Source of the DNA: Candidatus Aminicenantes bacterium JdFR-80 | Lineage (GTDB): Bacteria > Acidobacteriota > Aminicenantia > Aminicenantales > Aminicenantaceae | Direction of reading: 5' to 3' | NCBI GenBank assembly: GCA_002010725.1 | Contig: MTOP01000098.1 | Location: forward strand, 1-32,103 | DNA: 32,103 nt | In this document: piece after piece, positions 9,877 through 29,457 of the stretch | Position numbering within the stretch: position 1 is the stretch's first letter | Layout: every line of letters begins with the position of its first letter | Program-made: the position numbers and the translations under genes | Notes under the pieces: generated by a model | The model's input: the letters and a program-made list of their open reading frames with translations, nothing else | Databases searched by the model: none | Told to the model about the DNA's origin: nothing

Positions 9877-9892
9877 TGGGTTATTTCACCCA
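9877..9892. promoter_or_regulatory. Enhancer palindrome TGGGT-N6-ACCCA, site 1
   Basis: TGGGT-TATTTC-ACCCA, a perfect 5-bp inverted repeat with a 6-bp centre. It is centred about 127 bp upstream of the predicted start of the receiver gene. The same motif recurs at 12551, 17424, 25231 and, doubled, at 29421. Probable binding site of the NtrC-type activator (inferred). Confidence 0.75.
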
Positions 9893-9985
9893 TATATTAA
9901 AATAATTTAATTTTTATATAATGATTCATGAATTTTAAGTTGTTGAAAATAAAACAGATAAAAAAAGGTAAAGAAATTTTTATCT

Positions 9986-10002
9986 TGGCACAAAATATGC
10001 AA
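9986..10002 (+). promoter_or_regulatory. Sigma-54 promoter of the stand-alone receiver
   Basis: TTGGCACAAAATATGCA: GG at 9987-9988 and GC at 9999-10000, exactly 10 nt apart. The predicted start is near 10012, only 7 nt before the ATG at 10019, so the G-rich run at 10003-10008 would not be transcribed from here. Confidence 0.85.
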
Positions 10003-10018
10003 GGGGGGTAATAGAAAT

Positions 10019-10387
10019 ATGGCTAAGAAAATTTTAATAGTTGATGATGAAAAACTAATTAGGTGGTCTTTAACCAAAATTCTTACGCAGAGTGGTTATG
10101 AGGTGAAAGCAGTGGAAAGTGGGGAGGAAGCATTAAAAGAGATAGACGAGACTTCTTATGATTTAGTCTTTACAGACTTAAAAATGACTGGAATTGATGG
10201 GATTGAAGTTTTAAAGGAAATTCAAAAAGTATCTCCAAAAACAAAGGTTGTGATCATCACAGCTTATGGAACACCTCAGGTTCGCTCGCTGGCATTAAAA
10301 TTTAAAGCTTTTTCATTTATTGATAAACCATTTAAGGCAGAACAGATTAAAACTGTGGCAAGAAGTGCTTTAGGTAATTGTGATTGA
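10019..10387 (+). CDS. Stand-alone response-regulator receiver (CheY-like)
   Basis: A 122-residue receiver with acidic residues D9/D10, phosphoacceptor D53 (VFTDLKM), a Thr in IITAYG and a Lys in IDKPF: all key positions of a functional receiver. No output domain follows. Its N-terminus (KKILIVDDEK, then IRW and GYEV) closely matches the receiver of the neighbouring sigma-54 activator, suggesting a duplicate. It has its own sigma-54 promoter and enhancer palindrome, so it probably lies under the activator's control. It could act as a phosphate sink, a feedback element or a messenger to the nearby HAMP proteins. It is convergent with the gene at 10390-10995, with a gap of 2 nt. Confidence 0.92.
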   Translation: MAKKILIVDDEKLIRWSLTKILTQSGYEVKAVESGEEALKEIDETSYDLVFTDLKMTGIDGIEVLKEIQKVSPKTKVVIITAYGTPQVRSLALKFKAFSFIDKPFKAEQIKTVARSALGNCD

Positions 10388-10389
10388 TA

Positions 10390-10995
10390 CTAATTAAACT
10401 TAAAAAATTCTATTTTTTTATTGAGGCTTTCAATACTTTGAAATATTAAATTTAGATATTCTTGAATCTCCTTTAAATTTTCAGGCTTTTTGAGCAAGAG
10501 TTTATTTATTTCATTTTGAGGTACTTTAATCTCATTTAAAGGAGATTTCATATTATTAATTGTATTTTTTAATTCATTAATCATTAAATTGAATTTATCT
10601 TGAAGTTCTATTAATCGATCTCCTTTTCTCAAAATTACCTTTAAGGACAGATTTCCCTTAGTAATTTCATCTGCTATTTTTTGAAATCTAAATATAGGGC
10701 CTGAGATTCTTTTAATATAAGATCTGGTAATAATAATACAAATTAGAACAATTAATGGAATAATTATTAAATTTATAAGAATTAGATGTGGAATTATTAT
10801 TTCTCCAGAGGTTTCAATTGCTAAATGAGCTGAATAGAGAGTTTTCTTTATTTCTTTATTTAACAAGAAATAAAGTATTATATTACCTGTAATCGATGAT
10901 ATTATTGCCAATACAAAAAATTTTAGAATAAAGGATAATTGAAGCTCTTTCTTTACAAAATAATGTCTTCTTCTATAAGGTTTTTTCTTTTTCAT
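10390..10995 (-). CDS. Two-helix membrane HAMP protein without output domain
   Basis: A 201-residue protein with a basic N-terminus, a membrane segment (about 20-40), a short extracytoplasmic part, a second segment (about 70-92) and a HAMP domain starting RISGPIFRFQKIADEITKG. It ends in a predicted coiled coil. No kinase, cyclase or chemoreceptor signalling tip is present. The start is ATG at 10995, decided by a GGAGG site at 11001-11005; the longer open frame to 11037 runs into the cytochrome gene upstream. It is the last gene of the operon HAMP-cytochrome-HAMP. The function is unknown; it may form a redox-responsive membrane complex with the heptahaem cytochrome and its paralogue. Confidence 0.75.
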   Translation of the reverse strand: MKKKKPYRRRHYFVKKELQLSFILKFFVLAIISSITGNIILYFLLNKEIKKTLYSAHLAIETSGEIIIPHLILINLIIIPLIVLICIIITRSYIKRISGPIFRFQKIADEITKGNLSLKVILRKGDRLIELQDKFNLMINELKNTINNMKSPLNEIKVPQNEINKLLLKKPENLKEIQEYLNLIFQSIESLNKKIEFFKFN

Positions 10996-11005
10996 TAATT
11001 CCTCC

Positions 11006-11830
11006 TTATTTTCGATGACACTCGAGACAAAGAGCACTTCCAGTATTATCCATTACTAGATAATTTGGATGTTCAGAGAATGGATTATGACATGAACAAC
11101 ATCCAACTTTACCATCAAAAAGCTTAATTGCTGGATTTAAGCTTTCCGGAGGATTTAATCCTTCACTATTTCGAATATAAGCAAGTTCATAATCCACTCC
11201 AATTGGATGAGTAATTCCAATTCCAGGACCATGTTGCCATTTGCCAGCTCCTACAATAACATTATCTGCCATTTTTCCAATAGTTCCATCATGACAGCTG
11301 AGACATTTTCGCGATAGAGAATCTATTGGTGATCTATTATCAGTTATATAGTATTTTGGCTCAAGATGTGCTAATTCAATAGCCAATTTATGCTGGGAAA
11401 ATTTTTCTTCACCTGGTAATTCACGGTGGCAAGAAATGCAAAAAAGTCTTCCTGCGGTTGGGCGTCTTAAAAGATACGGATAAGGATTTTTCTCCTTTTC
11501 CTGATGAATGTCATGGCAGGTTGCACATGTTAATCTCCCCATCCAGTCAAGTGTGAAATCCTTTGGAATTCTCATAGAAGGAATTATGCCTGTAGGATGA
11601 GAGGTCGCTCGAGACAATTGATGGCAATCTTCACAAAGGCTGTCTATGTCTTTCACAAAAAGCATTTTTTTCTCTTCTGTCTTCTCTGGCGGCTCATTTA
11701 AATGACAGCGATTACATTCTCCCTTTCTTGTATGAGGATAATTTTTCGTAATGGAAACAATAAGGAATACTTGTATTAATAGTCCTGTTATAATTAGTAA
11801 AAACTTAAGAAATTCCTTTTTAAAATTCAT
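11006..11830 (-). CDS. Membrane-anchored heptahaem c-type cytochrome
   Basis: A 274-residue protein. An N-terminal membrane anchor or signal (about 8-29) precedes seven CXXCH motifs: CNRCH, CEDCH, CATCH, CISCH, CLSCH, CCSCH and CLECH. The phrase KCLSCHDGTIGKMADN and the later THPIGVDY resemble c-type cytochromes that accompany doubled CXXCH proteins. It overlaps the upstream HAMP gene by 4 nt, and its stop lies next to the ribosome site of the downstream HAMP gene. Being sandwiched between two signalling-type membrane proteins suggests it may report periplasmic redox state rather than only carry current; that is inference. Confidence 0.88.
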   Translation of the reverse strand: MNFKKEFLKFLLIITGLLIQVFLIVSITKNYPHTRKGECNRCHLNEPPEKTEEKKMLFVKDIDSLCEDCHQLSRATSHPTGIIPSMRIPKDFTLDWMGRLTCATCHDIHQEKEKNPYPYLLRRPTAGRLFCISCHRELPGEEKFSQHKLAIELAHLEPKYYITDNRSPIDSLSRKCLSCHDGTIGKMADNVIVGAGKWQHGPGIGITHPIGVDYELAYIRNSEGLNPPESLNPAIKLFDGKVGCCSCHNPFSEHPNYLVMDNTGSALCLECHRK

Positions 11831-12414
11831 TCTGTTTTGAATGAAGATAGAGTTCTTTCAATTATATCTATTTCTTCATTAACAATGTTAAGTTCTTCTT
11901 TTAATGCATCTATTTTTTTCTCCTTGATTAATAAATCAATTTTTTTCTTTCTTTTTTCTATATTCTCTAAGGATGATTTGACAGTAATTACTTTTCTTCT
12001 GATTTCTTTGACCAGATTATCCATAGAATTGGCAAAGCTTTTAATCTGATCCTTGGCTCTAATTCTTACTTCTTTAGGGATTTCTCCTCGGGTTATTTGT
12101 TCGATTATTCTTTCTAATCGGAATAAAGGACCCGCAATTTTATGAGAGGAGAAAAGGGTTATTATAATGGTAGTAATTGTAATTAATATTAATTGAAAAA
12201 AGAAAGAATATAATAAATATTTAGCTAAATTGCGATTAAGTTGCTGTAAAAAATATAATGAATAAAAATAAGAAACGTCTATTTTCTCATTGATTAATAA
12301 ATATAGGAGAAGAGAAGCAACTAAAAAAGCAATAAACATAATAATTGAAAATTTGAGGATAAATTTAATTTGAAAATCAGGTTTAATTGGTTGCGTGTTT
12401 GGATTTTTTATCAT
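11827..12414 (-). CDS. Two-helix membrane HAMP protein with C-terminal coiled coil
   Basis: A 195-residue protein with membrane segments at about 19-42 and 67-87, then HAMP (HKIAGPLFRLERIIEQITRGE, about 91-140) and a charged coiled coil to the end (KKIDLLIKEKKIDALKEEL). No output domain follows. It is paralogous in layout to the gene at 10390-10995. It is first in its operon and is driven by the minus-strand sigma-54 promoter at 12457-12473. A GGAGG site precedes the ATG at 12414. The partner of its HAMP domain is unknown; the solitary receiver or the kinase encoded nearby are candidates. Confidence 0.75.
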   Translation of the reverse strand: MIKNPNTQPIKPDFQIKFILKFSIIMFIAFLVASLLLYLLINEKIDVSYFYSLYFLQQLNRNLAKYLLYSFFFQLILITITTIIITLFSSHKIAGPLFRLERIIEQITRGEIPKEVRIRAKDQIKSFANSMDNLVKEIRRKVITVKSSLENIEKRKKKIDLLIKEKKIDALKEELNIVNEEIDIIERTLSSFKTE

Positions 12415-12456: not shown

Positions 12457-12473
12457 TTGCAATTTACATGCCA
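12457..12473 (-). promoter_or_regulatory. Sigma-54 promoter of the HAMP-cytochrome-HAMP operon
   Basis: Minus strand CTGGCATGTAAATTGCA type: GG at 12472-12471 and GC at 12460-12459, exactly 10 nt apart. The start near 12447 leaves a 33-nt leader with a GGAGG site. It is divergent from the sigma-54 promoter at 12662, and both share the enhancer at 12551. Confidence 0.85.
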
Positions 12474-12550: not shown

Positions 12551-12566
12551 TGGGTGAAAACACCCA
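12551..12566. promoter_or_regulatory. Enhancer palindrome TGGGT-N6-ACCCA, site 2 (shared by divergent promoters)
   Basis: TGGGT-GAAAAC-ACCCA. It is centred about 111 bp from the minus-strand start and 129 bp from the plus-strand start, so one enhancer can serve both sigma-54 promoters. Confidence 0.78.
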
Positions 12567-12661: not shown

Positions 12662-12678
12662 TGGTATGATTTTTGCAA
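12662..12678 (+). promoter_or_regulatory. Sigma-54 promoter of the NHL/cytochrome operon
   Basis: TGGTATGATTTTTGCAA: GG at 12663-12664 and GC at 12675-12676, exactly 10 nt apart. The predicted start near 12688 is practically at the ATG (12689), implying a leaderless or nearly leaderless message. Confidence 0.8.
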
Positions 12679-12688: not shown

Positions 12689-13756
12689 ATGAAGAGTAGC
12701 AAAAAAGCTTTTCAGTTATTGTTAGTTTATTTATTGATTATATTTATTAATAATTGTATTACAAAGAATGAGATTTCAAAGAAAGAAATCAAAAATTTAA
12801 TCTGGCCTCAACCACCGCAAAATCCAAAAATTGCATTAATTGGATATATCTCAAGCGAACGAGATTTAGGACTTTCTTTTAGAAAGAAATTAGCTGAAAT
12901 ATTGACAGGAGAGAAAAGCTCCATTAAAAAATTAGTGAGACCAGTGAATGTTGCTGTTGATAATAATGGGAAAATTTTTGTAGTTGATTTAGAATACAAT
13001 AACATTTTGGTTTTTGATCGGCCTAATAAAAAATCATATTTTATTGGAAATAAAGGGCGAGTCAGACTGATAAGGCCAATGGGAATTAAAGTAGACAATA
13101 GCTTTGTATATATTAGTGACAATTATCAGAATAGAATTTTCGTGTATGATAAAGAAGGAGATTTTGAAACCGCCTTTGGAGGAGATAGAATTCTCAATAG
13201 GCCTGTTGGAATTGCTCTTGATAAAATGAGAAACTTGATATGGGTTGCAAATACATATAATCATGAGATTTTAGCCTTTGATTTAAAGACAGGTAAATTG
13301 GTAAGAAAAATTGGAAAAAGAGGTCGTGGTAAAGGAGAATTTAATTTTCCAAGTTTTATAGCAGTAGATAATAAAGGCCGAATATATATTACGGATTTTG
13401 GGAATTTCAGAATTCAAATTTTTGATTCCAAGGGCAATTTTATTAATGATTTCGGTAGCTTTGGGGAAGGTCCAGGCAATTTCTCCCGGCCTAAGGGAAT
13501 AGCATTAGACTCTGATGGTTATATTTATGTGGTTGATTCTGAATTATGCAATTTTCAAGTTTTTAATATAAATGGAAATTTTCTTCTTCGTGTTGGACAG
13601 CTTGGGCAGGAATTAGGAGAATTTGATTTGCCAGTTGGAATTTACATTGATGAACAGGATTACATTTATGTTGCAGATCAATTGAATGGAAGGATACAGA
13701 TTTTTAAGTATTTGAAAGGGAAGAAACCACCTAAAAATACGAATTTGACTGAGTAA
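12689..13756 (+). CDS. Exported six-bladed NHL-repeat beta-propeller, copy 1
   Basis: A 355-residue protein. The N-terminal hydrophobic signal (about 8-22) ends at a Cys in INNC, which is a poor lipobox. A short WPQPPQNPKI segment follows, then six NHL repeats of the form RPxGIAxD-IYVxD-RIQIF. The WPxPPxxPxI lead-in is shared with the copy at 16372 and is known from NHL proteins of metal-reducing bacteria. NHL propellers mediate protein contacts; they recur beside exported multihaem cytochromes, possibly as assembly or docking factors. It heads the operon with three cytochromes. The ATG coincides with the predicted sigma-54 start, and there is no classical ribosome site. Confidence 0.85.
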   Translation: MKSSKKAFQLLLVYLLIIFINNCITKNEISKKEIKNLIWPQPPQNPKIALIGYISSERDLGLSFRKKLAEILTGEKSSIKKLVRPVNVAVDNNGKIFVVDLEYNNILVFDRPNKKSYFIGNKGRVRLIRPMGIKVDNSFVYISDNYQNRIFVYDKEGDFETAFGGDRILNRPVGIALDKMRNLIWVANTYNHEILAFDLKTGKLVRKIGKRGRGKGEFNFPSFIAVDNKGRIYITDFGNFRIQIFDSKGNFINDFGSFGEGPGNFSRPKGIALDSDGYIYVVDSELCNFQVFNINGNFLLRVGQLGQELGEFDLPVGIYIDEQDYIYVADQLNGRIQIFKYLKGKKPPKNTNLTE

Positions 13757-13781
13757 ATAGCTACTGTTATAATTGAGTAAG

Positions 13782-14603
13782 ATGGTTTATCGATTTTCCA
13801 GAAAATGTTATTTATTGTTAAGTTTGGGTGTTCTTTTACTAATTTTAAGTGTTCCATTTTTTCTTAATTCATTGAACTTAATTCAAGAAGAGGAATCAGA
13901 CTGTAAAACCTGTCATACATCAATTCGACTATATCATCCAGAGGAGGCTGATTGTTCTAATTGCCATGCTGACCATTCCTCAGGTTCGCCTAAGCTCCTG
14001 TTAGATAAAATTCCTGCTCTATGCTGGAATTGTCATGAAGAAAATGTAAAGATGGAATCAAAGCATTTTCCTTTCTCAGAGGGGGAGTGCCTGGAATGTC
14101 ATGTTGCTCATGGAAATAAGGAAGATTATTTTCTCGCAGAATCTTTACCTAATATATGTCTTGAATGTCATGGAGAAATTAATGAACTAATGGAAAGAAA
14201 TTTTGTTCATCCTCCAGTTGAAGAAGATTGTACCACTTGTCATTCTCCTCATAGCTCAGATTTTCCAAAATTATTAAAGGATTTTATTTCTCTGAGATTC
14301 TATGAATTATATACACCTTTGAAATATCAATTGTGTTTTCAATGCCATGATAGAAAAGATATTTTTGGGAGCAATAGCGGATTTGTAAAAGGAGATATAA
14401 ATTTACATAAGGTTCATGTTCAGAAGAGAAAGGGTCGCACATGTTTTGTCTGTCATGATCCACATGCAAGCGATCAAGGATATCTTCTAAGAGAAAGAAT
14501 TCCATTTGGTAAATTCTGGTTTATAAAGTTAAAGCTGGAAGAGAAAAACGGTCAGAAATCATGTTTACCAAGTTGTCATCAAAAGGAGAATTACGGAAAA
14601 TGA
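13782..14603 (+). CDS. Multihaem c-type cytochrome, eight CXXCH plus one CX3CH
   Basis: A 273-residue protein with an N-terminal signal or anchor (about 10-30). Eight canonical motifs follow (CKTCH, CSNCH, CWNCH, CLECH twice, CTTCH, CFQCH, CFVCH). A last motif, CLPSCH, has three intervening residues. Such CX3CH sites can carry haem in some deltaproteobacterial cytochromes, so it may be a nonahaem protein. A TTG at 13773 is an alternative start; neither has a strong ribosome site, and coupling to the NHL gene 25 nt upstream is likely. Its stop overlaps the next gene (ATGA). Confidence 0.85.
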   Translation: MVYRFSRKCYLLLSLGVLLLILSVPFFLNSLNLIQEEESDCKTCHTSIRLYHPEEADCSNCHADHSSGSPKLLLDKIPALCWNCHEENVKMESKHFPFSEGECLECHVAHGNKEDYFLAESLPNICLECHGEINELMERNFVHPPVEEDCTTCHSPHSSDFPKLLKDFISLRFYELYTPLKYQLCFQCHDRKDIFGSNSGFVKGDINLHKVHVQKRKGRTCFVCHDPHASDQGYLLRERIPFGKFWFIKLKLEEKNGQKSCLPSCHQKENYGK

Positions 14604-15415
14604 GAAGGCTATTACTTTTATTTTTTATAAGTATTATATTATTCCCTGTTTCTGCATTAGATGATATTGTTTTATTCCCTCCTGATAAATCTTTTTTTAA
14701 GTCTTCCAAGGTAACTATTGTTGTAAAAGCAGAATCTGTTCAAACCTCCTTTCCTGTAGTCCGTTCTATTCAGACCAAACCCTATTTTCATTTGTTAATA
14801 AATCTAAAATCAGGGGAGAATAAAATTCCTCTTTTTATAATAAAAGATGGAAAAGCTTACAAGAAAACTTTAACTCTTCATTATTTTCGATCAGATAATT
14901 ATCAAGGCGAAGGAAAAAAATACTTTTTTCATAAAGATGAAAAAATTCAAAATTTTTGCTCCCAATGTCATGCGTCAGATAAAATGCAGGATAATATCTG
15001 TTTAAGCTGCCATCTAGAAAAAAAAGAAGAAAAATCTTACAAGCACGAGGCTTTTGATCCAAGCGATTGTTCAGGATGTCATGAAGAGGAAACACAAGAG
15101 ATAGTTGTTTCTTGCTTTGACTGTCATGAGGAAAAATCTGGTCACTTACATTCACCATATGCAATTAATGAATGTTTTCTATGCCATGACCCACATGGAA
15201 CATTTCAGAAAGCTTTGCTAATTAGTGATGTTCGTTCACTGTGTACTCAGTGCCATCTGAGTGAAGATTATAGAGAATTTGTACATCCTGTCCATAGGCA
15301 TCCAATGGAATCTAGGAATATATCCTGCATTACATGTCACAACCCTCATGGTTCTCCGTATTCTTTTTATTTTCAGTATGCACCTGAAGTTATTTGTACC
15401 AAATGCCATGATTAA
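14600..15415 (+). CDS. Octahaem c-type cytochrome with N-terminal Ig-like domain
   Basis: A 271-residue protein with a signal peptide (about 1-19, ending FPVSA). A haem-free beta-rich region of about 80 residues begins IVLFPPDKSFF and resembles an Ig/Fn3-like fold. Eight CXXCH motifs then fill the C-terminal half: CSQCH, CLSCH, CSGCH, CFDCH, CFLCH, CTQCH, CITCH and CTKCH. The start is the ATG at 14600, overlapping the preceding TGA and served by AAAGGAG at 14582-14588; the open frame further upstream is not used. The Ig-like part may dock the cytochrome to a partner or the outer membrane (inference). Confidence 0.87.
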   Translation: MRRLLLLFFISIILFPVSALDDIVLFPPDKSFFKSSKVTIVVKAESVQTSFPVVRSIQTKPYFHLLINLKSGENKIPLFIIKDGKAYKKTLTLHYFRSDNYQGEGKKYFFHKDEKIQNFCSQCHASDKMQDNICLSCHLEKKEEKSYKHEAFDPSDCSGCHEEETQEIVVSCFDCHEEKSGHLHSPYAINECFLCHDPHGTFQKALLISDVRSLCTQCHLSEDYREFVHPVHRHPMESRNISCITCHNPHGSPYSFYFQYAPEVICTKCHD

Positions 15416-16220
15416 GAATATTGCTAAAAGATTAATTTATCTTTTGATTTTTTATCAATTAGTATACTCTGGAAAATCACCTCACTTATCCTTAATTGTA
15501 ACAAACAAGGATAAACCAGGTTTAAGTAGTTCCTCATCATGTAAAGTATGCCATATAGTTCATTCAGCTAAATCCGTTTATCTGTCCCCCCCTCCAAAAA
15601 GTATAACAGTTGTAGAATTTACAACTCCACGGGGAAATTTATCTGAAAGAGATCTTTTATGTATGAAATGTCATACAGATAATGTTACTTTGCAGATAGA
15701 ATTTCCTGGATTTATTACTAATATATCAAAATCCAATTTTCTAGGTAAAAATATGATTGACGATCACCCAGTAGGTATTCATGTTAGTGAGAGTTTTACA
15801 TTTATAAGAAATAAAAAATCCCTTCCCCTCGGGAAAAACAAAACTATACTCTGTGTTACTTGTCATGATCCACATCAGAATACATTTCCTCCTTTACTTC
15901 GTTTACCTAAAAATGAACTTTGCCTAACCTGTCATGAAAATGCAAATTTAACCTTTGAATATGCTCATAGAGATGAGGATTGCGGTAAGTGTCATCAATT
16001 ACATAACACTTCCAATTCATCACTTATTTTTGTTAAAAAAACTTTAAATGAATGTTTAAACTGTCATTCTAATTCCCATATAGGAATATTTCCAAAGTTA
16101 AACCCTAAAGATATCATTCTCGATTTTAATAATCCATTTATACAACAGGAACAAAAAAATTCTGGGTGTCTTAAATGTCATAAATTTCACAAAAAAATGG
16201 ATGGATTCGGATCCTTTTAA
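15408..16220 (+). CDS. Heptahaem c-type cytochrome
   Basis: A 270-residue protein with a signal peptide (IAKRLIYLLIFYQLVYS). It has seven CXXCH motifs: CKVCH, CMKCH, CVTCH, CLTCH, CGKCH, CLNCH and CLKCH. Several are followed by DPH or a second histidine typical of bis-His ligation. The open frame extends back to 15261 inside the previous gene, but only the ATG at 15408 gives a signal peptide directly at the N-terminus. It overlaps the previous stop by 8 nt, so translation is coupled. It ends the operon that starts at 12689. The phrase DDHPVGIHV resembles the THPIGVDY and NDHPIDLVY segments in the cytochromes at 11006 and 17621, suggesting a common ancestral fold. Confidence 0.87.
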   Translation: MIKNIAKRLIYLLIFYQLVYSGKSPHLSLIVTNKDKPGLSSSSSCKVCHIVHSAKSVYLSPPPKSITVVEFTTPRGNLSERDLLCMKCHTDNVTLQIEFPGFITNISKSNFLGKNMIDDHPVGIHVSESFTFIRNKKSLPLGKNKTILCVTCHDPHQNTFPPLLRLPKNELCLTCHENANLTFEYAHRDEDCGKCHQLHNTSNSSLIFVKKTLNECLNCHSNSHIGIFPKLNPKDIILDFNNPFIQQEQKNSGCLKCHKFHKKMDGFGSF

Positions 16221-16371
16221 TATTAAAATAATAAAAAGTAATAAAAGGATTTTAAATGGAAATCGATTTTTAATAGCTGCTTTTCAGTTTTTAGTTCTAT
16301 TAAAGGATTAAAAAACCTTATTAATATTGAGTTTTTGAGTTGAAAATGCTAAATATGGAGAGGAGGTAATG

Positions 16372-17415
16372 ATGATTCGAAATTTGAATATTATAAAAAT
16401 CTTTATAATTATACTAATTATCCTTTACATTCCTTGCTTAATGTATTCTAAAAAAAGAACCAAAGAATTTGTATGGCCGCTACCTCCTGAAAAACCGAGA
16501 ATCCGATGGATTGCTGAATACAGAACAATAGAAGAGTTTAGAGGAGAAAGTAAGCTAAAAAAATTAATAAGGAAACTTGCTGGAATAAAAATGAAAGGTT
16601 TATTTCTTTATCCAAATAGTGTCACAACAGATGATGAAGGAAATATTTATGTTACAGATACAGTAGGAAAAAGAATTGTAGTGCTTGATATCAAGAAGAA
16701 AAAGGTTTATTTTTGGACAGGGGGAAGAATAAAGCTAGTTTCACCTGCTGGAATTGCATTTTCAAAAAAAGAAAAAATAATTTTTGTATCTGATACACAT
16801 TTGAGAAGCGTTTTTGGATTTAGTAAAAAGGGTGAAATTATAATGGAGATAAAGGAAAAACTTCAACGGCCCGGGGGTTTAGCAGTAGATGACAAACGAG
16901 AAAAGCTCTATGTTGTTGATGTTAGGAATCACGATATAAAAGTATACAATTTATCAGGAGAGTTAATAAAAATAATAGGAAAAAGAGGAGATCAACCAGG
17001 CACTTTTAATTTTCCAAATTATATATGCCTTGACAAAAAAGGAAACATTTATATAAGTGACATGGGGAATTTTAGAATACAGATCCTCTCTCCAGACGGT
17101 AAATTTCTGAATATGTTTGGAGAACCTGGAAGAAGACCTGGTAATTTGATGAGGCCAAAAGGTATTGCAATTGATTCTGAAAATCATATTTACGTAGTAG
17201 ATGCATGGTTTAATAATATACAGATTTTTGATATATATGGGAGAGTTTATCTTGCTTTTGGTTCTCCTGGAGTTAATCCAGGAGAATTTCTTTTACCTAT
17301 AGGCATCCATATAGATGAAAAAGACAGGATATATGTCTTAGATCAGGTAAATAAAAGATTGCAAATATTTCAATATATTTCTTATGGGGAAAAAGCTCCT
17401 CTCCCTAAATATTAA
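16372..17415 (+). CDS. Exported six-bladed NHL-repeat beta-propeller, copy 2
   Basis: About 347 residues. A signal sequence (about 8-25) is followed by the WPLPPEKPRI lead-in shared with the copy at 12689 and by six NHL repeats; the last four have the strict form GxFNFPNYI-IYISDMGNFRIQI. Two ATGs are adjacent. The second, at 16372, sits 5 nt after AGGAGG (16361-16366) and is preferred over 16369. A 150-nt AT-rich gap without a clear promoter separates it from the cytochrome operon, so it is probably co-transcribed with it. It is the paralogue of copy 1, likely by duplication. Confidence 0.87.
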   Translation: MIRNLNIIKIFIIILIILYIPCLMYSKKRTKEFVWPLPPEKPRIRWIAEYRTIEEFRGESKLKKLIRKLAGIKMKGLFLYPNSVTTDDEGNIYVTDTVGKRIVVLDIKKKKVYFWTGGRIKLVSPAGIAFSKKEKIIFVSDTHLRSVFGFSKKGEIIMEIKEKLQRPGGLAVDDKREKLYVVDVRNHDIKVYNLSGELIKIIGKRGDQPGTFNFPNYICLDKKGNIYISDMGNFRIQILSPDGKFLNMFGEPGRRPGNLMRPKGIAIDSENHIYVVDAWFNNIQIFDIYGRVYLAFGSPGVNPGEFLLPIGIHIDEKDRIYVLDQVNKRLQIFQYISYGEKAPLPKY

Positions 17416-17423: not shown

Positions 17424-17439
17424 TGGGTAAAATAACCCA
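17424..17439. promoter_or_regulatory. Enhancer palindrome TGGGT-N6-ACCCA, site 3
   Basis: TGGGT-AAAATA-ACCCA, starting 8 nt after the stop of the NHL gene and centred about 149 bp upstream of the predicted start for the tetrahaem cytochrome gene. Confidence 0.75.
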
Positions 17440-18324: not shown

Positions 18325-18327
18325 GTG

Positions 18328-21562: not shown

Positions 21563-22102
21563 ATGAAGAAGAGTTTATGGATTTTGGTATTATTGGTTTC
21601 CATGGGAGTTATTTTAATTGGTCTAATGGCACAAGAGTTTACTTATGTGGGGGTTAATAAATGTAAAATCTGTCACAAAGCAGAGAAAAGAGGAAATCAG
21701 TATGGTAAGTGGTTGGAAGGTCCTCACTCCAAAGCTTTTGAAGCTTTGAAAAGTGATAAGGCTGCAGAAATAGCAAAGAAAGCAGGAGTAACCACTCCCC
21801 CAACAGAAAGTGCAGAGTGTCTTGAATGCCATTCTCCTTATGCTTCCTCAGCACCAGAATTTAAAGAAGAAGGGGTTGGATGTGAAGCTTGCCATGGTCC
21901 GGGAAGCGGATATAAGTCATTAAAGGCAATGAAAGACAGAAATTTGGCTGTTGAGAAAGGCTTAGTTCTATTGGATACTGATGCTAAAAAAGAAGCACTT
22001 TGCACAAAGTGCCATAAGGCTGATCACAAATATCATGAGATAAAACCTTTTAATCTCCAGGAATTCTGGTCAAAAATTGAACATAAAAAACCTGCTGAAT
22101 AA
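21563..22102 (+). CDS. Tetrahaem cytochrome of the c554-like family
   Basis: A 179-residue protein with a signal peptide (about 4-22, ending GLMA). The mature start QEFTYVGVNKCKICHKAEKRG and the later GVGCEACHGPGSGYK are characteristic of the cytochrome c554-like domain (Cytochrome_C554 family). Four CXXCH motifs are present (CKICH, CLECH, CEACH, CTKCH). The GCEACHGPGS signature is shared with the decahaem and octahaem proteins at 27265 and 28295. The start at 21563 is set by AAAGGAGGT at 21551-21559; an upstream in-frame ATG at 21524 is ignored. It ends the operon. Confidence 0.87.
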   Translation: MKKSLWILVLLVSMGVILIGLMAQEFTYVGVNKCKICHKAEKRGNQYGKWLEGPHSKAFEALKSDKAAEIAKKAGVTTPPTESAECLECHSPYASSAPEFKEEGVGCEACHGPGSGYKSLKAMKDRNLAVEKGLVLLDTDAKKEALCTKCHKADHKYHEIKPFNLQEFWSKIEHKKPAE

Positions 22103-22262: not shown

Positions 22263-25058
22263 TTACTTATATCCGAATAACATACTGTAGATAATAAGAA
22301 GAATAAGACTAATACCTATTGAAAGAAAAAGGAATCCAAATATACGTACAAGTAGCATTTGTTTAGGATTTATTTCAGTTGATACAATACATTTCTTTAA
22401 TTTTCCACTTTCTTTTAAATACTTGTATTCAAGTGGCCGTTCTTCTTTATATTGATCCAATGGAACCAGTCCAGTAAAAATAACAGGGTCTAAAGGGAAT
22501 GATTCTGGTCTAAGATGTGTATTGAAAAAGTGGATAGTGAAAATGAATCCAACTGCTAATAGAGCTTCGTCACTATGTACAATCATTGCGACATTAATAA
22601 GCCAGCCTGGTAAAAATTTTGTGAAGAATTCTGGAAACCACAGAATCAATCCCGAAAGTCCTATGACTCCAACTCCCCAAAAAACTGCCATGTAATCGAA
22701 TTTTTCCCAGTATGTCCATCTTCCATATTGGGGTCGCGGCCCTAAACCAAGGAACCATTTTATTGAATCAATAAAGTCGCGCCAGTCCTTTTTATTAAAC
22801 CAGAGAGAACGTTCTCCAAAAATCATCTCCTTCCAGGTTGTTTTTGTTTTGATTTTCATACGTATTAAGCTAAAAAGATGTGCGAAGAAATATCCAAAAG
22901 TAATTATAGCAGAAATACGATGGATGCGTCCTGCTACTTCCACTCCTCCAAGGAAATTAGCCAGTGCTTGAGCCCATGGCATGCTTGCAAATTTTAACAT
23001 CATTCCAGTAAGTGCCAAACCCATAAAACTTAAAATTACAAAAATATGTGTAATTCGCTGTCCTGTTGTGAAACGTTTAATGTAGTATCTTTTTATATGG
23101 CTCTTTTGAGCTTTCTTTTTTTCCTTCAAATTCTTAAAAGAACGAGGTAACCATAATAGAGTATGTAAACCAAAGAAACAGAAAACAAAGATAAGAAGGG
23201 ATGTCATAGCCCAAAAAGTAAAATATAAAACTGGATATTTTTGTTTATCGTGGTGGGTAGCATGTGTTAAATAGCCTGTAAATTTACGGTTAGCATCTTC
23301 ATGGCATTTCTTACAAGTTGTAACAATATTGTTAAATCCAACATGAGAGTTCGGGTCATCCACTTTTCTTATATCATGTGCTCCATGACAATCAGAGCAC
23401 TTTGCAGCTTTTAAATAACCGAGAGTATATGCCTTACCATGAATGGTTTCCATGTAAGTTTCTGATAACTTCTGATGGCAAGAACCGCATTGAAAGGTTA
23501 TTTCTCTCATAAATTGGTCCTGCCGTATCTCTTTAATTTGGTGGGCAGAATGACAGTCTTCACAATTTGGAAGTCTTTTATCCACTCCAGGAGCAGATAT
23601 ATTGTGAACACTATTAGCATATTCCTTGTAAATTCCCTGATGGCAAGAACCACATGTTGCAGGAATATTTTTATAATAAATGGATGATTCTTCCATTTTA
23701 TGGTTTAAGATATAATGAGTATTATGACAATCCGTGCATATAGCACTAGGTAATAAGCCTTTTTTTATCAAGCCCTGACCATGAACACTCATTGAATAAT
23801 CAATTAAGGGGCTTTTTTCAGAGATTTCTAAAGGTTTAGGTGGGGTTAGTTTTGCATGACATTCACCACATAATTGAGGAATATTAACTCTATAAGTTTT
23901 TGCTCGCTCATCACGGGGAGAATAAATAATATGTTTGCCATGACAGTCAGTGCAATAGGGCGTATTAGGTTTATTTTGTATATAAGCTTGTCCATGATCA
24001 CTTTCAAAATAATTTTCTGCAATCTGAGCATGGCAGTTAGAACAATCAACACGCCCTGCAGTCTCGCATGGTCTGGCTCTCTGAGGATCTATATCCGCAT
24101 GACACTTTACACAAGGAATATTTCTATGAACAGAATTTTGGATATCTTCTTTTTTGATTTTCAGAGAGATTTTTTCTCCATTTTTTATTTTAAAAACTTC
24201 TGATTTTTGATGACATTTAAGACATTCTCGATCAGAAGTTCTTAATACCAGATTAGTTCGTTTAATTTTATGAGGTTGGTGACAATCTGTACATGCAGGG
24301 ATAGCTCCAGGTTCTTTTTCCCAGAGTTCCCCTTTTATAATTTTGGCGTGAACCTCTTCTATTCGAGCATGACATTTTGTGCAAGTCTTTGCAATATTAT
24401 AAAGGGAAATAGAGGAGTTTTTGTAAATATGAGGGAGAATCAGGTGGTTGCCGTGACAATCATTGCATGTTGCAGTTACTATAAGACCCTTTTTGAATAA
24501 TCCTTCGCCATGAATACTTTGAGAATAATTAGAAAGGATGTCTTTTTCAGGAATATTGTAAATACGGGCAACAGGAGCACCTTCTCGATGACATTTCCCG
24601 CAGAGAACAGGAATATTCATTTTATAGGTTCGAGAGCGAATATCAGTATGGGGTAGAATATAATGATATCCGTGACATTCTTTGCAAGTTGGAGCATAGG
24701 GAGCGCCTCTCTTTAAAGCCTTTCCATGAATACTTGCCATAAATTTTTTATTTACATCTTCGTGACAGTTTCCACAATTAACACGAGATAACTCTTCAGG
24801 GTGGGGAAATTCTTTGACATTTGCTTCTTCATGACAATCAATGCAATCCAAATCTTTGTGGACAGAACGATAGAATTTTTGGAAATCAATGAACAAAGAA
24901 ATGGTTCGGCCACGTCTTTTAGTCGTTAGCTCAGGATCTGCATGACATATTTTGCAATCTTCGTTGGTTTGAGCAGGTAACAATTGAATGAGAAAGATAA
25001 AAATAAAAAATGAGGTGAGAAGGACTTTCTGTATTTTTATTATTACTGCTTCTCTCAT
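22263..25058 (-). CDS. 19-haem cytochrome c fused to a cytochrome b membrane domain (CbcL-like)
   Basis: A 931-residue protein. A signal peptide (about 9-29, ending LLPA) is followed by about 560 periplasmic residues with 19 CXXCH motifs. The last 325 residues or so are a polytopic FdnI/HydC-like cytochrome b domain with paired membrane histidines ([44 protein letters not shown]). The design is that of Geobacter CbcL, a menaquinol-oxidising cytochrome used at low potential, but CbcL carries about nine haems c. The c domain contains two related blocks, from [13 protein letters not shown] and from [13 protein letters not shown]. It is monocistronic, with its own sigma-54 promoter. An AGGAAG ribosome site lies unusually close to the ATG. 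Confidence 0.9.
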
Positions 25059-25128: not shown

Positions 25129-25145
25129 ATGCAAAAATCATGCCT
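25129..25145 (-). promoter_or_regulatory. Sigma-54 promoter of the 19-haem cytochrome c/b gene
   Basis: Minus strand AGGCATGATTTTTGCAT: GG at 25144-25143 and GC at 25132-25131, exactly 10 nt apart. The start near 25119 leaves a leader of about 60 nt. Confidence 0.85.
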
Positions 25146-25230: not shown

Positions 25231-25246
25231 TGGGTGAAATTACCCA
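25231..25246. promoter_or_regulatory. Enhancer palindrome TGGGT-N6-ACCCA, site 4
   Basis: TGGGT-GAAATT-ACCCA, centred about 119 bp upstream of the predicted start for the 19-haem gene and 60 nt beyond the stop of the porin gene. Confidence 0.78.
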
Positions 25247-25305: not shown

Positions 25306-27249
25306 TTAAAACTTCCACCCAAATCCAAAATATATGATATGGAACTTTCCATTATATTCAGGCACCCATGCAGTATCCTTGTAATTTTCATATTTGTACT
25401 TTGCAATAAAAGCCATATTCTTTGTTAGTGAGTAACTGAATCCACCAGAAAGTCTGGTATGTGTTATATCGAGGTCTGTTAGCTCAGCGATATCTGGAGC
25501 AATATCTGATGAATCGAAATTTGATTTTCCTTTAGTAATTGAAAAGTCAACCAAAAAACTAAGTTTTTCAATAGGATTGAAATTAAGGGAAATTAAAAAT
25601 GTGTTAGCTTTTCTGTTATAAGGGACATCCTCATCACCCATTGCATAACCATAGTCTGTTCCATAAATCAGATTGTTTTTAATCTCGCTATCGAGAAATC
25701 CATAAGAGGCTGTTAAATTCAGCTTGTTAGTTGGAGCAATCCACATATTTATAATAAAGTTATAAGTATTCTCTTTAGAATTTATATCTTCATTCTTGCC
25801 CGATTTCCAGAAGAGATTTCCTCCAAGAGAAAATCTCGAAGTTGGAGTCAAATTCAAACCACATATCACTTCATTTACATCAGTATAAAGATTGGTCATC
25901 AAAAGCTCCTGAGTAGGTTCTAATGGAGATTCGTCTTCAAGCATTGCAAAAGGATTATTTATATCTTTTCTTTTGTATCTAATATAGCCATTGAATTTAG
26001 AAGAAGGATAAAAGGAAGCACTCAGATAAGTGATATATTTTTTAGTTTCTTCAATCTCAAAGTGACTTCTCTTTACCTTTTGCCACTCAAATTTTCCTCT
26101 GAGATTGATTTTCTGTTTTGGAATGTGATAGAAAAGATCAACTACACCAATTGAAGTATCTCTTGAAATAGTATTTTCAATATGATTATCGTACTTTTCT
26201 TTTTGATAATTTACTGCAATTCTTAATCCTTTTATTAGATTTGCAGATAAACGGGAAAGAAAATTTTTCAAATCAAGTTTTCCGTCATTATGTTTATTTT
26301 TTACACTCGCTACTGTATAACTTCCAAATAAGTGTGCTTCATTAAGAACTTTAACCCTTGCCTTTACATTATGTGCAGTTTTGTCTGAATCAGGTATATG
26401 GGCAAATTCCTGTTCTCCTAAATAAGCAAACCATGGCAATCCAGTATAAACATGGGTTAATGGTGTAGCTCTGTCATCAAATCTCCTTGACATGAAAGAA
26501 TAACTTATTGTCACTGGTTTTACATTCACTTCTGTTCCAAGTATAAACTCCATTGTCCTTTGGTCAATCTCCTGAGTTTGTGCATCAATATGGCAGACAA
26601 AGCACTGATCTAAGGTTCTTGCTTGTTGATGTCCCTTTTCAATTATATACCTAACATTTGCCTTAAACTTTACTTGAGGAAAATCAGGAATTACAAGTTC
26701 AGTTCTATTTCTTATTTCAGTTCTCCTAGTTATGTATTCATCAGTAGGATTACTATCTACAAAAACAAATTCATGGTAATCTTCAACATTTGTTAAGGGG
26801 TCGTGGTCAAGGCGATGAATAAATCTATTAAAATAAGTTGTGTTTCTTACTACTCTTCCAATATCAAGATTTGCATAATATTTTTGTTCATCTGAGTGGA
26901 TAAAAGAACCGCTTAGGTCTAAGTAATTTCTCTTTCCAAAACTTCCCTTAATATAGAAATCAGCTCCTGGAGAAGATTCAACGGTTTGATATTCTGCTAC
27001 TCTTCCACCTGAAAGACCTGAAACAAGAATAGGTAAATCTTCCTTTTTTGAGGCTAAAAAGCGATACCGGGGAGCAATATAATAGGAGAATTCAGATTTA
27101 TTTTGAGATTTAGATTCTTTTTCTGCAAGAGAGAATTTTTTAGCTAATTCATTTTTGAATAATACTAAATTATCGGAATTTGCTAATAGGGGATTAATCA
27201 TCCAAACAAATAAAATTAAGAAAGAAATAATTGTTATTTTTTTGCTCAT
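25306..27249 (-). CDS. MtrB/PioB-like outer-membrane porin with one CXXCH motif
   Basis: A 647-residue protein with a signal peptide (about 5-23, ending PLLA) and then beta-strand-rich sequence to a terminal Phe (IIYFGFGWKF), the usual barrel end. A single haem motif CFVCH lies at about 216-220, in a loop between strands. Its neighbour upstream encodes an MtrA/DmsE-like decahaem cytochrome, so this is the sheath of a trans-outer-membrane conduit. MtrB proteins carry an N-terminal CXXC pair, but a full CXXCH inside the barrel region is unusual. The start is ATG 27249; an in-frame GTG at 27258 falls within the AGGAGGTG ribosome site and is not used. Confidence 0.87.
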   Translation of the reverse strand: MSKKITIISFLILFVWMINPLLANSDNLVLFKNELAKKFSLAEKESKSQNKSEFSYYIAPRYRFLASKKEDLPILVSGLSGGRVAEYQTVESSPGADFYIKGSFGKRNYLDLSGSFIHSDEQKYYANLDIGRVVRNTTYFNRFIHRLDHDPLTNVEDYHEFVFVDSNPTDEYITRRTEIRNRTELVIPDFPQVKFKANVRYIIEKGHQQARTLDQCFVCHIDAQTQEIDQRTMEFILGTEVNVKPVTISYSFMSRRFDDRATPLTHVYTGLPWFAYLGEQEFAHIPDSDKTAHNVKARVKVLNEAHLFGSYTVASVKNKHNDGKLDLKNFLSRLSANLIKGLRIAVNYQKEKYDNHIENTISRDTSIGVVDLFYHIPKQKINLRGKFEWQKVKRSHFEIEETKKYITYLSASFYPSSKFNGYIRYKRKDINNPFAMLEDESPLEPTQELLMTNLYTDVNEVICGLNLTPTSRFSLGGNLFWKSGKNEDINSKENTYNFIINMWIAPTNKLNLTASYGFLDSEIKNNLIYGTDYGYAMGDEDVPYNRKANTFLISLNFNPIEKLSFLVDFSITKGKSNFDSSDIAPDIAELTDLDITHTRLSGGFSYSLTKNMAFIAKYKYENYKDTAWVPEYNGKFHIIYFGFGWKF

Positions 27250-27264
27250 TTTCTTCACCTCCTT

Positions 27265-28176
27265 TTATCGAGTAAATCTTCCATGACCGCTTAGTGATGG
27301 AAAATCTGAACCGTGAATTTGGGAATGGCACTGTGTACATTTTGTGTAAAAGCTTATCCGCCACTCAGGATTAGTTACTGCAGGATGATAGTGATCTTCG
27401 TGTCCTGGATGACATTGCATACAAAGGAAAGGCTGATTCTGTTTTAACAAATTATTTGCAATTGTTCCGTGGGAATCATGGCATAATAAACAGTTTTCGA
27501 CAACTGGAGCATGCTCATATGTGAATGGACCCTGTTTTTCAGCATGGCAACTGAAGCAGAGTTCATTAATGGTTTCTGCCCTAAGATTAGCTCTAAAAGT
27601 TCCATGTGTATCATGACAAGAAGAACATTTCATCTTTTTTTCTTTTATTGGATGATGAGAAGGGTAATTCATTGAAGCTATTTTTTCTCTATGGCATTGA
27701 AAACATAATTTAGGGTCTTTTGATTTAAGTAGGAATTTACCCCTTGTTTGATGTGGATCATGACAATCTGTGCAGGAAATTCCACTTAAAGCATGAGTAC
27801 TGCTCGGCCATGCAATTTGAGGTTCTTCTCTATGGCAATTCAGACAGATTTTTGAACTTTCTTGAGGCGTTAATTTTTTCAATGAAACAATCTTCTCAGG
27901 ATCTTGTTCTTCAACATGCACACTTCCTGGGCCATGACAAGCTTCACACCCTAATACCTGGCCTTTTGCTTCAAAATCAGCTATTCTACCGTGAATTGTG
28001 GACTTGAATTTATTGAATGTATCCTCATGGCATTCCTTACAGGTTTCAGAACCAACATAGGTAGCTTCAATGGATTTTTTCTTAGCATATGAGTTTGTAT
28101 TATTTATTAGTAAAAGGTAAAAGACGAAAAATGTTATTATGCAAATTCCTACAATGATGTTCTTATTTACCTTCAT
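27265..28176 (-). CDS. Decahaem c-type cytochrome, MtrA/DmsE family
   Basis: A 303-residue protein with a signal sequence (about 7-31) followed by EATYVGSETCKECH, the usual opening of DmsE/MtrA-type decahaem proteins. It has ten CXXCH motifs: CKECH, CEACH, CLNCH, CTDCH, CFQCH, CSSCH, CFSCH, CLLCH, CMQCH and CTQCH. Length and haem number match MtrA, which threads through an MtrB barrel to move electrons across the outer membrane. The MtrB-like gene follows after 15 nt. The start is ATG 28176 with AAGGAGGG upstream, rather than the TTG at 28194. Confidence 0.92.
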   Translation of the reverse strand: MKVNKNIIVGICIITFFVFYLLLINNTNSYAKKKSIEATYVGSETCKECHEDTFNKFKSTIHGRIADFEAKGQVLGCEACHGPGSVHVEEQDPEKIVSLKKLTPQESSKICLNCHREEPQIAWPSSTHALSGISCTDCHDPHQTRGKFLLKSKDPKLCFQCHREKIASMNYPSHHPIKEKKMKCSSCHDTHGTFRANLRAETINELCFSCHAEKQGPFTYEHAPVVENCLLCHDSHGTIANNLLKQNQPFLCMQCHPGHEDHYHPAVTNPEWRISFYTKCTQCHSQIHGSDFPSLSGHGRFTR

Positions 28177-28242
28177 TTTTCCCTCCTTACTCAATTTTTA
28201 ACCCGAAAAGAATTTTAATTTTTAAGTACTAATACTCCTTGT

Positions 28243-28256
28243 ATCACCTCCTTTCT
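28243..28256 (-). promoter_or_regulatory. Orphan extended Shine-Dalgarno sequence (STAB-SD-like)
   Basis: The minus strand reads AGAAAGGAGGTGAT, 14 nt complementary to the usual 3' end of bacterial 16S rRNA. No ATG, GTG or TTG lies at a usable distance downstream; the next gene starts 67 nt later with its own ribosome site. Untranslated sites of this kind stabilise mRNA in Bacillus cry3A (STAB-SD). A similar role for the decahaem/porin message is inferred. Confidence 0.45.
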
Positions 28257-28294
28257 TAAATTCTTATTTTTTATTAAATTATCGTTATTATCCG

Positions 28295-29314
28295 TCAATG
28301 AACATAAGGAGCTCTGCTTGCAGCCCACTCAACACTCCTGTCTGCATGACATCTTAAACAAGCAAAACCTAACGTAATCCATCCTTTTGAATATTTTCCA
28401 TCAGGAGTAAATTGTGGAGCATTAGGATCAATATTTATTCTAAATAAATGAGTTTTGATATCCCCCTCCCAGGGACCTCTTTTAACTGCTGTTTTTACAA
28501 TATACGCCATATGGCAATCAGTACAAGTTACTCCAGCCTCTGCCATTTCTGTTTCTTTAAATTCCTCAGCCTCTGGTGCATGACAATAACTACAATCAAA
28601 TTTTCGATAGGTTGATAAACCAGCCCTTTTATGCGGGTCATGACAGGTCACGCAATTCATATTTTTGTGTGGACTTTGCAATAATTCTTGATATTGTTCA
28701 TGGTGACGGATAAATCCCCCTTTGGCAGGAATAACTGTAGGGTCCTCCCCTCGAATATGACATTGACCGCATAAGGAAGAAGACCTATCCACAATTATAT
28801 CTGCTGGAGATCGGGTTTTTGTATGAATACTACCAGGACCATGACAGGCTTCACATTGAATTCCTTCAAAAGCCCAACTTCCTACAATACCAGGATATCC
28901 TGTGCTTCCAGTTTCATCATATCCTGTGGTATGGCATTCTCCACAAGTATATTTTTTTACTTCACCTGCATGATAGTCTGCCCATTTTTCAGTTTCAATG
29001 TTAAATTGATTTCTGCCTTTTTCTGTAATAAAGTAGCCTTCATTGTTCAAATATCTTGTTTTCCATTTAAAACCAACAACATAAAGGATATCACTCCATC
29101 CCACATAATCAGGTTTAGGTACTCCTGCTTTTCTCGCATCTTCAGCCTTTCGAAGCATATTAGCATGACCAGATGCTTTCCAGTGGACATAGATACTGCC
29201 ATGACACGTTTTGCAAGTATCAGCTCCTATATATTTAGCATTAGTCTGAGCAAAAGTTGTTTGTGCAATAAGTAGTGAACACATTAATGGAATAAATAAC
29301 TTCAACATTCTCAT
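28295..29314 (-). CDS. Octahaem c-type cytochrome of the porin-cytochrome conduit operon
   Basis: A 339-residue protein with a signal peptide (about 3-22, ending TTFA). The opening YIGADTCKTCHGSIYVHWKASGH is typical of Cytochrome_C554-domain proteins. Eight CXXCH motifs are present: CKTCH, CGECH, CEACH, CGQCH, CVTCH, CSYCH, CTDCH and CLRCH. A haem-free segment (about 50-118, with WADYH) separates haems 1 and 2 and could form a substrate or docking surface. No lipobox is seen. In Geobacter conduits an octahaem (OmaB-type) works on the periplasmic side; in Shewanella MtrC is outside, so the side of the membrane is open. First gene of its operon, with a sigma-54 promoter and GGAGGT ribosome site. 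Confidence 0.87.
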   Translation of the reverse strand: MRMLKLFIPLMCSLLIAQTTFAQTNAKYIGADTCKTCHGSIYVHWKASGHANMLRKAEDARKAGVPKPDYVGWSDILYVVGFKWKTRYLNNEGYFITEKGRNQFNIETEKWADYHAGEVKKYTCGECHTTGYDETGSTGYPGIVGSWAFEGIQCEACHGPGSIHTKTRSPADIIVDRSSSLCGQCHIRGEDPTVIPAKGGFIRHHEQYQELLQSPHKNMNCVTCHDPHKRAGLSTYRKFDCSYCHAPEAEEFKETEMAEAGVTCTDCHMAYIVKTAVKRGPWEGDIKTHLFRINIDPNAPQFTPDGKYSKGWITLGFACLRCHADRSVEWAASRAPYVH

Positions 29315-29340
29315 TTAATATACCTCCTTACTAAGACCTT

Positions 29341-29357
29341 ATGCATAATCCATGCCA
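29341..29357 (-). promoter_or_regulatory. Sigma-54 promoter of the porin-cytochrome conduit operon
   Basis: Minus strand TTGGCATGGATTATGCAT-like: GG at 29356-29355 and GC at 29344-29343, exactly 10 nt apart. The start near 29331 leaves a 17-nt leader containing GGAGGT. Confidence 0.87.
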
Positions 29358-29420
29358 AAATATAAAAAAACCTTTTCTCTAATCTTTTACTTTTTCTATA
29401 AAAATAATAAATTTTTAAAA

Positions 29421-29457
29421 CGGGGAATTTAACCCACTTGTTGGGTTAAATTCCCCG
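29421..29457. promoter_or_regulatory. Doubled enhancer palindrome, site 5
   Basis: CGGGGAATTTAACCCA (29421-29436) and its exact reverse complement (29442-29457) flank CTTGT. Each half fits nGGGn-N6-ACCCA on one strand, so the element looks like two inverted half-degenerate copies of the enhancer. Its halves are centred about 97 and 118 bp upstream of the octahaem start. It could also fold as a strong hairpin in RNA. Confidence 0.65.

Follow-up and report, generated by a model that had tools for sequence, protein, structure and literature searches.

A putative local sigma-54 regulon of electron-transfer operons around a kinase–activator pair in an Aminicenantia contig

Introduction

What switches on the electron-transfer genes that crowd a single contig of an uncultured bacterium? 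Contig MTOP01000098.1, filed under Candidatus Aminicenantes bacterium JdFR-80 (class Aminicenantia; assembly GCA_002010725.1), was analyzed over its full 32,103 bases, and this whole stretch is referred to below as the window. It encodes a sensor histidine kinase (6981–8459, plus strand) and an NtrC-type response regulator (8456–9817, plus strand; hereafter the activator), together with cytochromes, NHL proteins and a porin. A first-pass annotation, made from the sequence alone, had interpreted these genes as a sigma-54 regulon of electron-transfer operons whose enhancer is the palindrome TGGGT-N6-ACCCA. That interpretation gains support from the co-conservation of palindrome and promoter beside related activators, and from the restriction of the code to this cluster in the genome to which the contig seems to belong; a dedicated, local two-component sigma-54 regulon around the kinase–activator pair now appears highly likely.

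Most of what is known about how extracellular electron transfer is controlled comes from Geobacter and Shewanella. Here, in uncultured bacteria of the deep subsurface (deep seafloor), a compact and readable candidate enhancer code accompanies genes for a porin-cytochrome system, a candidate nanowire and NHL proteins.

Results

Promoters and palindromes in the window

All six of the intergenic -24/-12 promoters described in the first-pass annotation were located, each with the exact GG-N10-GC spacing; of the 12 window sites scoring at least 6 out of 7 on our own consensus score, these six are the only intergenic ones. Four match TGGCAYN5WTGCA exactly and two are one base off. The promoter TGGCACAAAATATGCA (9986–10001, plus strand) would serve a receiver gene starting at 10019; that at 12458–12473 (minus strand), the genes 12414–10390; that at 12662–12677 (plus strand; one base off, TGGTA), the NHL/cytochrome genes 12689–17415; that at 17555–17570 (plus strand), the genes 17621–22102; that at 25130–25145 (minus strand; one base off, AGGCA), the gene 25058–22263; and that at 29342–29357 (minus strand), the porin-cytochrome genes 29314–25306. 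Operon extents for the units starting at 12414, 12689, 17621 and 29314 are deduced from gene order.

A palindrome, or a doubled variant of it, accompanies every one of these promoters, as had been claimed. Exact copies of TGGGT-N6-ACCCA are found at 9877–9892 (TGGGTTATTTCACCCA), the proposed enhancer of the receiver gene; at 12551–12566 (TGGGTGAAAACACCCA), common to the divergent promoters of 12414 (minus) and 12689 (plus); at 17424–17439 (TGGGTAAAATAACCCA); and at 25231–25246 (TGGGTGAAATTACCCA). The doubled palindrome at 29421–29457 consists of CGGGG-N6-ACCCA at 29421 and TGGGT-N6-CCCCG at 29442, arranged as mirror images 21 bp apart. The spacing of 97–149 bp upstream of the start, as first described, holds when measured from the palindrome center to the predicted transcription start (97.5–149.5 bp) and fails for the start codon, to which the gap is 106–181 bp; the gap to the -24 hexamer is 63–115 bp.

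This arrangement is not explained by chance. Four exact palindromes compare with a mean of 0.00 in 100 dinucleotide shuffles, the looser pattern YGGGK-N6-MCCCR gives six sites serving 6/6 promoters against a shuffle mean of 0.044 sites, and none of 500 shuffles produced any palindrome–promoter pair; all these palindromes fall in intergenic DNA, which makes up 7.1% of the window. A pure-chance reading was rejected on the exact copies and the absence of pairs in shuffles. At up to two mismatches there are 10 palindromes against a mean expectation of 6.75, which is no enrichment.

Inverted repeats may also be terminators or RNA hairpins instead of protein sites, and two features would suit this: the copy at 9877 lies 59 bp past the activator stop codon, and 29421–29457 has 16-base inverted arms. 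Against it, the repeats at 12551 and 29421 sit between divergent genes, neither of which would send a transcript into them for termination; the half-site spacing does not vary from six; and in a relative (genome G344, locus L233) tandem copies separate a 17-CXXCH cytochrome gene from its divergent neighbor. The terminator reading was rejected on the sites between divergent genes and the fixed spacing, and we regard it as extremely improbable.

Origin of the contig and restriction of the code to the cluster

The window is one whole contig of a 2.91 Mb, 113-contig bin (genome G000, JdFR-80), and 30,370 of its 32,103 bases (1734–32103) are 100% identical to contig C10 of genome G060 (JdFR-78, MTON01000031.1). 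Its GC content is 32.5%, versus 38–49% for 23 of 24 stretches taken from the bin's other contigs (the remaining one, L018, has 35%), and a second GlutR-type gene was found in the bin containing the window. The data paper (PMC5369317) lists JdFR-78 at 2,530 kb and GC 32.5, and JdFR-80 at 2,915 kb, 113 scaffolds and GC 44.5; the latter values agree with the window's bin. The contig is very probably misbinned, derived from JdFR-78 and placed in the JdFR-80 bin, and genome-wide counts therefore belong in JdFR-78, the only member of its order in the genome set. A count in the window's own bin was for this reason dropped as the main test; it gives five exact palindromes, four in the window and one inside a gene, in agreement with the JdFR-78 count.

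A genome-wide scan of JdFR-78 found that exact palindromes are scarce apart from those at sigma-54 promoters, as the first-pass annotation had expected: there are five exact copies, four in the cluster and one inside an open frame, and no sigma-54-like site lies within 40–200 bp of this fifth copy. At up to one mismatch the genome holds 31 palindromes versus 28 for a control pattern, which is the chance level; 10 of the 26 one-mismatch sites were examined, and all ten fall within open frames and lack a sigma-54 site at a distance of 60–135 bp. JdFR-78 encodes sigma-54 itself (rpoN; PF04552, 202.8 bits), and 18 stretches match the activator domain. Exact TGGCAYN5WTGCA sites number 32, of which 30 were examined: a palindrome with up to two mismatches lies within 160 bp upstream of 4/4 sites in the cluster versus 0/26 of the others, 20 of these 26 being intergenic by our frame calling. 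(A backwards-pattern control for these sites contains CpG and is too rare for a fair comparison.) Among the JdFR-78 sites examined, none outside the cluster shows the code.

Conservation of palindrome and promoter in relatives

Three sets of loci were compared: 18 orthologs of the activator from the class (including G000:C81, and excluding the window and G060), 67 homologs from other classes, and 28 control loci comprising other activators and paralogs. The class and phylum spoken of here are taken, from the name of JdFR-78, to be Aminicenantia and Acidobacteriota. The control set has some overlaps (L008/L115 and L119/L163 are the same protein, and L017 is L099); L110 and L116 belong to two further genomes, L128 is truncated ahead of its DNA-binding domain, and L130 is used in the composite count where L163 is used in the recognition-helix count below. 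A control that contained L020–L029, loci chosen for carrying the palindrome, is biased and was not used. A composite was defined as YGGGK-Nk-MCCCR, or a site differing from TGGGT/ACCCA at no more than one base, placed 60–135 bp upstream of GG-N10-GC.

At k = 6 the composite is present in 11/18 class loci, 11/67 other-class loci and 0/28 control loci, whereas at other spacings (k of 0–5 and 7–12) the counts are 0–1/18, 0–4/67 and 0–1/28. Promoters facing the wrong way at k = 6 give 0/18, 5/67 and 0/28. All 11 class composites lead to a gene for a stand-alone receiver, as the palindrome and promoter at 9877 and 9986 do in the window. The promoter has a counterpart at 12/12 class receiver genes, and each of these has at least one site (up to two mismatches) that begins 105–134 bp ahead of the -24 hexamer. 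Another lies 20–24 bp away at 5/12 when two mismatches are allowed and at 10/12 when three are. The palindrome lies between the activator and receiver genes, as at 9877, in L080, L081, L220–L224, L226 (a perfect copy, TGGGTGATATCACCCA), L227 and L230. Activators of the relatives with this layout are 56–63% identical to that of the window, and the mean pairwise identity of the spacer is 0.32 over 13 upstream regions, window included, so the motif does not simply reflect recent shared ancestry. The aligned promoters were picked by a scan requiring GG, C and GC, which makes the invariance of TGGCA/TGC partly a product of construction, and only the spacer counts as evidence. By FastTree leaf order, support values not considered, most composite loci belong either to the class group or to one of a few neighboring other-class groups.

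The pairing of activator and palindrome, put forward on first reading as a supposition, thus has strong comparative support from co-conservation, with 11/18 class loci at spacing six versus 0–1 otherwise. Several observations weigh against it or against the regulon as a whole. Six of the 18 class loci (L225, L228, L231, L082, L084 and L099) have neither a receiver gene nor a palindrome–promoter pair within the 6.9–20 kb of each, and L084 has two good sigma-54 sites with no palindrome. The excess in other classes is modest, and wrong-way pairs occur in 5/67 loci. In the window, the predicted leaders of 10019 (7 nt) and 12689 (1 nt) are too short for a Shine-Dalgarno sequence, and the departures from consensus at 12662 and 25130 count on the same side. 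The seventh class locus outside the 11 composites, L227, has degenerate sites only.

Across 396 genomes of the phylum the composite pattern occurs at 16 places in 14 genomes, versus 6 for the backwards control. The window, counted in each of the two bins, accounts for four of the 16; three of the other 12 (in G387, G344 and G203) are on the contig of an activator ortholog, and the remaining nine are close to the control's six. In G344 a second tandem pair precedes the 17-CXXCH cytochrome gene on the same contig, beside orthologs of window genes (L233).

Between palindrome and promoter there is also an A/T-rich block (TTATTTTCAA-like or its complement), at about 9936–9964 in the window and in the same zone of 12 relatives, with many columns at a pairwise identity of 0.4–0.6; it is possibly a site for a bending protein.

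A locus from another phylum, L166 (Nitrospirota, JAADIA010000040.1), has a layout like that of the window: an activator homolog (53%), a 5-CXXCH cytochrome, a receiver gene with a perfect sigma-54 site (TGGCACGAAAATTGCA), two OmcE-like cytochromes resembling the window tetraheme protein described below, NHL proteins and further cytochromes. The palindrome is missing there (the best site has three mismatches), and a different inverted repeat, TGTGC-N6-ACGCA, lies 110 bp upstream of the sigma-54 site; the code has therefore changed in L166 or is not shared with it.

The kinase and the activator

Pfam matches confirmed that the window has a complete NtrC-type activator with the GAFTDA motif, alongside its kinase. 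The activator has Response_reg, Sigma54_activat and HTH_8 (Fis-type helix-turn-helix) domains, all over cut-off, and is the proposed palindrome binder; the kinase combines a periplasmic domain carrying one CXXCH with HAMP, HisKA and HATPase domains. GAFTDA is found in 19/19 class activators (window included) and 57/67 other-class homologs, and is a conserved variant, not the classic GAFTGA of the loop by which such proteins touch sigma-54. The phospho-acceptor aspartate of the receiver domain is likewise present in 19/19 class activators, and the kinase CXXCH is kept in all 18 kinases aligned, that of the window among them. Matches to the activator at E-values of 1e-100 or better occur in 348 of the 396 genomes, many of them paralogs, and those at 1e-140 or better in 19 of 142 class genomes, including the window's bin and JdFR-78. 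A plasmid search (at least 5000 records) returned only distant activators of this large family, with identities below 60% among the matches listed.

The signature RDxxRY in the recognition helix is shared by 19/19 class activators (window included) and 66/67 other-class homologs; in the control set it appears in 1/28, namely L017, which is the class ortholog L099, and in 0/25 distinct others, one of which is cut before the domain. Since the signature is far more widespread than the composite (66/67 versus 11/67 other-class loci), it fits the pairing of activator and palindrome and does not prove it. The palindrome might instead be the site of another dimeric regulator—a repressor or nucleoid protein—travelling with the operons, the NtrC-type activator reading some other site. 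Binding of the palindrome by the activator is a prediction, and the six class loci in which the activator lacks a palindrome would agree with such a regulator, whereas the palindrome stands at enhancer distance, often in tandem 20–24 bp apart, and near the activator in 11/18 class loci; it is found also beside homologs that have no multi-CXXCH gene in the compared DNA (L088 and L092), and among the activators compared from both bins RDxxRY is limited to the window activator and its G000:C81 ortholog. We consider this other regulator improbable and favor the activator as the protein that reads the palindrome.

The JdFR-80 bin has an activator ortholog of its own, L099 (G000:C81:2108–3409; 56% identity), accompanied by a CXXCH kinase and by cytochromes resembling the window tetraheme protein; no palindrome–promoter pair was found on its 8 kb contig.

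Sensor domain and signal

The description of the kinase as heme-sensing in the first-pass annotation agrees with its apparent kinship to c-heme sensor domains. A profile built from 15 sensor domains, all of which (15/15) have the CXXCH motif, picks out two domains of c-heme chemoreceptors, 3b42 (E 5.4e-5) and 3b47 (E 0.0011), and 13 of the 15 match Mcp40H-20_sensor at E-values up to 0.1, the best being 4.6e-7. The periplasmic domain of the kinase likely binds heme. Its resemblance to c-heme Cache domains (DUF3365/Tll0287, sCache_heme) leaves two candidate signals for the kinase, redox and nitric oxide.

Cache domains with covalent heme, and with nitric-oxide-sensor properties when fused to signalling modules, are described in a 2026 preprint (PMC12889525), which names GSU0582 (3B47) among them. 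These properties, with the matches to 3b42, 3b47 and Mcp40H-20_sensor, give weight to a real sigma-54 regulon that answers to nitric oxide or another heme ligand and not to the redox state of an electron acceptor. On the other side, the window domain itself is under the Pfam cut-offs for Tll0287-like (PF11845, 16.9 bits versus 24.1) and Mcp40H-20_sensor, and electron-transfer genes as targets would suit a redox cue. A ligand signal of this kind is a substantial possibility, which we place a little short of even.

The stand-alone receiver

The first gene of the putative regulon (10019–10387, plus strand) encodes a stand-alone receiver domain (REC; Pfam) whose alpha-1 helix, DDEKLIRWSL, is nearly the same as that of the activator's own receiver. 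The type DD[ED]KLIRW[ST]L is common to receiver and activator in 13/13 loci, with conservative changes in some activators, and IRW at alpha-1 is present in none of the other readable activator receivers, a comparison that covered activators only. The alpha-1 helix of receivers holds kinase-contact residues; the stand-alone receiver is therefore probably phosphorylated by the activator's kinase as well and, as a putative phosphate sink, probably limits the response.

In relatives, the receiver looks like the head of a porin-cytochrome operon. A decaheme gene (partly cut in L230) comes next after the receiver gene in 9/12 class loci, and in the other three (L220, L224 and L226) the contig ends at or soon after the receiver gene. 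Downstream of the decaheme gene, where the DNA extends (L081, L221, L222, L223, L227 and L229), there is a long frame and often another 10-CXXCH gene; the long frame of L221 is an MtrB-like porin by BLAST.

Predicted targets and neighboring genes

By Pfam and NCBIfam, the target families are multiheme cytochromes, NHL propellers, a cytochrome-b561-like fusion, a GSU2203-family decaheme cytochrome and an MtrB/PioB-like porin. The first gene after the 17555 promoter (17621–18271, plus strand) encodes a tetraheme cytochrome with four CXXCH motifs, an OmcE-like nanowire candidate: its phmmer matches are 9yuq (E 1.8e-31) and 7tfs (E 1.2e-27 over residues 13–215), the latter of which we take to be the OmcE filament. 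The gene at 22263–25058 (minus strand) encodes a fusion of a 19-CXXCH cytochrome with a cytochrome b561-like membrane domain. The porin-cytochrome unit, a candidate conduit of the MtrAB type (GSU2203/GSU2204), includes a decaheme cytochrome of the GSU2203 family, MtrA/DmsE-like (27265–28194, minus strand; NCBIfam NF041028, 361.6 bits versus a cut-off of 325), and an MtrB/PioB-like outer-membrane porin with one CXXCH (25306–27258, minus strand; Pfam MtrB_PioB, 36.5 bits, cut-off 23). The porin is under the cut-offs of NF041027 (281.8 versus 350 bits) and TIGR03509 (21.7 versus 240), and has no match in the PDB at E-values up to 1.

The unit 12414–10390 (minus strand), which would be a single sigma-54 unit, encodes a 7-CXXCH cytochrome and two small membrane proteins. 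The small proteins (10390–11037 and 11827–12414), which flank the cytochrome, resemble by eye HAMP modules that lack kinase domains, with no Pfam HAMP match; they possibly form a signalling side branch.

At the other end of the window an IS481-like transposase frame (734–1900; 95.1 bits, under the cut-off of 224), inside which the JdFR-78 contig ends, is directly upstream of, and overlaps, the cytochrome/FeS/NrfD genes 1854–4684. Orthologs of these genes in G344 adjoin the tandem palindrome of L233, and a transposase insertion may thus have severed the window genes from a shared control region.

Discussion

A mechanism can be proposed in which a membrane kinase whose periplasmic domain is predicted to carry one c-type heme would phosphorylate the activator, as suggested by gene order and family. 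The activator dimer would bind TGGGT-N6-ACCCA, oligomerize, and contact RNA polymerase–sigma-54 at -24/-12 promoters 63–115 bp away. Six transcription units would then be switched on: the receiver, the small membrane-protein/cytochrome operon, two NHL/multiheme operons (one of them starting with the OmcE-like nanowire cytochrome), the 19-heme/cytochrome-b protein, and the operon of the decaheme cytochrome and MtrB-like porin. The receiver, competing for kinase phosphate, may then limit the response. In its fullest form—a sigma-54 circuit gated by heme, limiting itself and serving extracellular electron transfer alone, with a fixed enhancer code, a phosphate-competing receiver as its first product, and an old Aminicenantia switch whose layout is similar in Nitrospirota (L166)—this proposal is tentative, and we think it unlikely that every part of it is right.

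The enhancer code can be used to find activator targets in other genomes, and it offers a ready reporter for the putative heme kinase. The recurrence of this signature next to the regulator across many relatives makes the control of extracellular respiration in this uncultured group testable.

Comparison with known systems

No description of the palindrome or of this regulon was found in the open-licence literature. In Geobacter, the sigma-54 activator BccR is said to be needed for the multiheme cytochrome operon cbcBA; its name was not found in that literature. The putative regulon would be a further case of cytochrome control by sigma-54 and an NtrC-type activator, and its lead target, the receiver, is unusual.

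The best or near-best NCBIfam matches are to AtoS and ZraS for the kinase and to AtoC for the activator; in the PDB, ZraS is the top match for the kinase, and the activator matches NtrC-family regulators that include ZraR. The system nevertheless differs from ZraSR and AtoSC, as its NCBIfam scores are far below the equivalog cut-offs, and its sensor domain and targets are different. It is like the RpoN regulon of Geobacter sulfurreducens, in which sigma-54 affects cytochromes of Fe(III) reduction such as omcB; unlike the present case, that regulon is global and was derived from expression and promoter prediction, and the available part of its description (PMC2725144) names neither a palindrome nor a dedicated cytochrome activator.

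NtrC-type activators that control cytochrome operons through sigma-54 were proposed earlier (PMC4641369) for DVU3142 and ohcBAC of Desulfovibrio vulgaris. As here, a sigma-54 activator gene adjoins a cytochrome operon, with sites predicted upstream of sigma-54 promoters by comparative genomics. The ohc operons are, however, divergent from the activator gene, whereas six units are arranged around the kinase–activator pair in the window, with a stand-alone receiver among the predicted targets.

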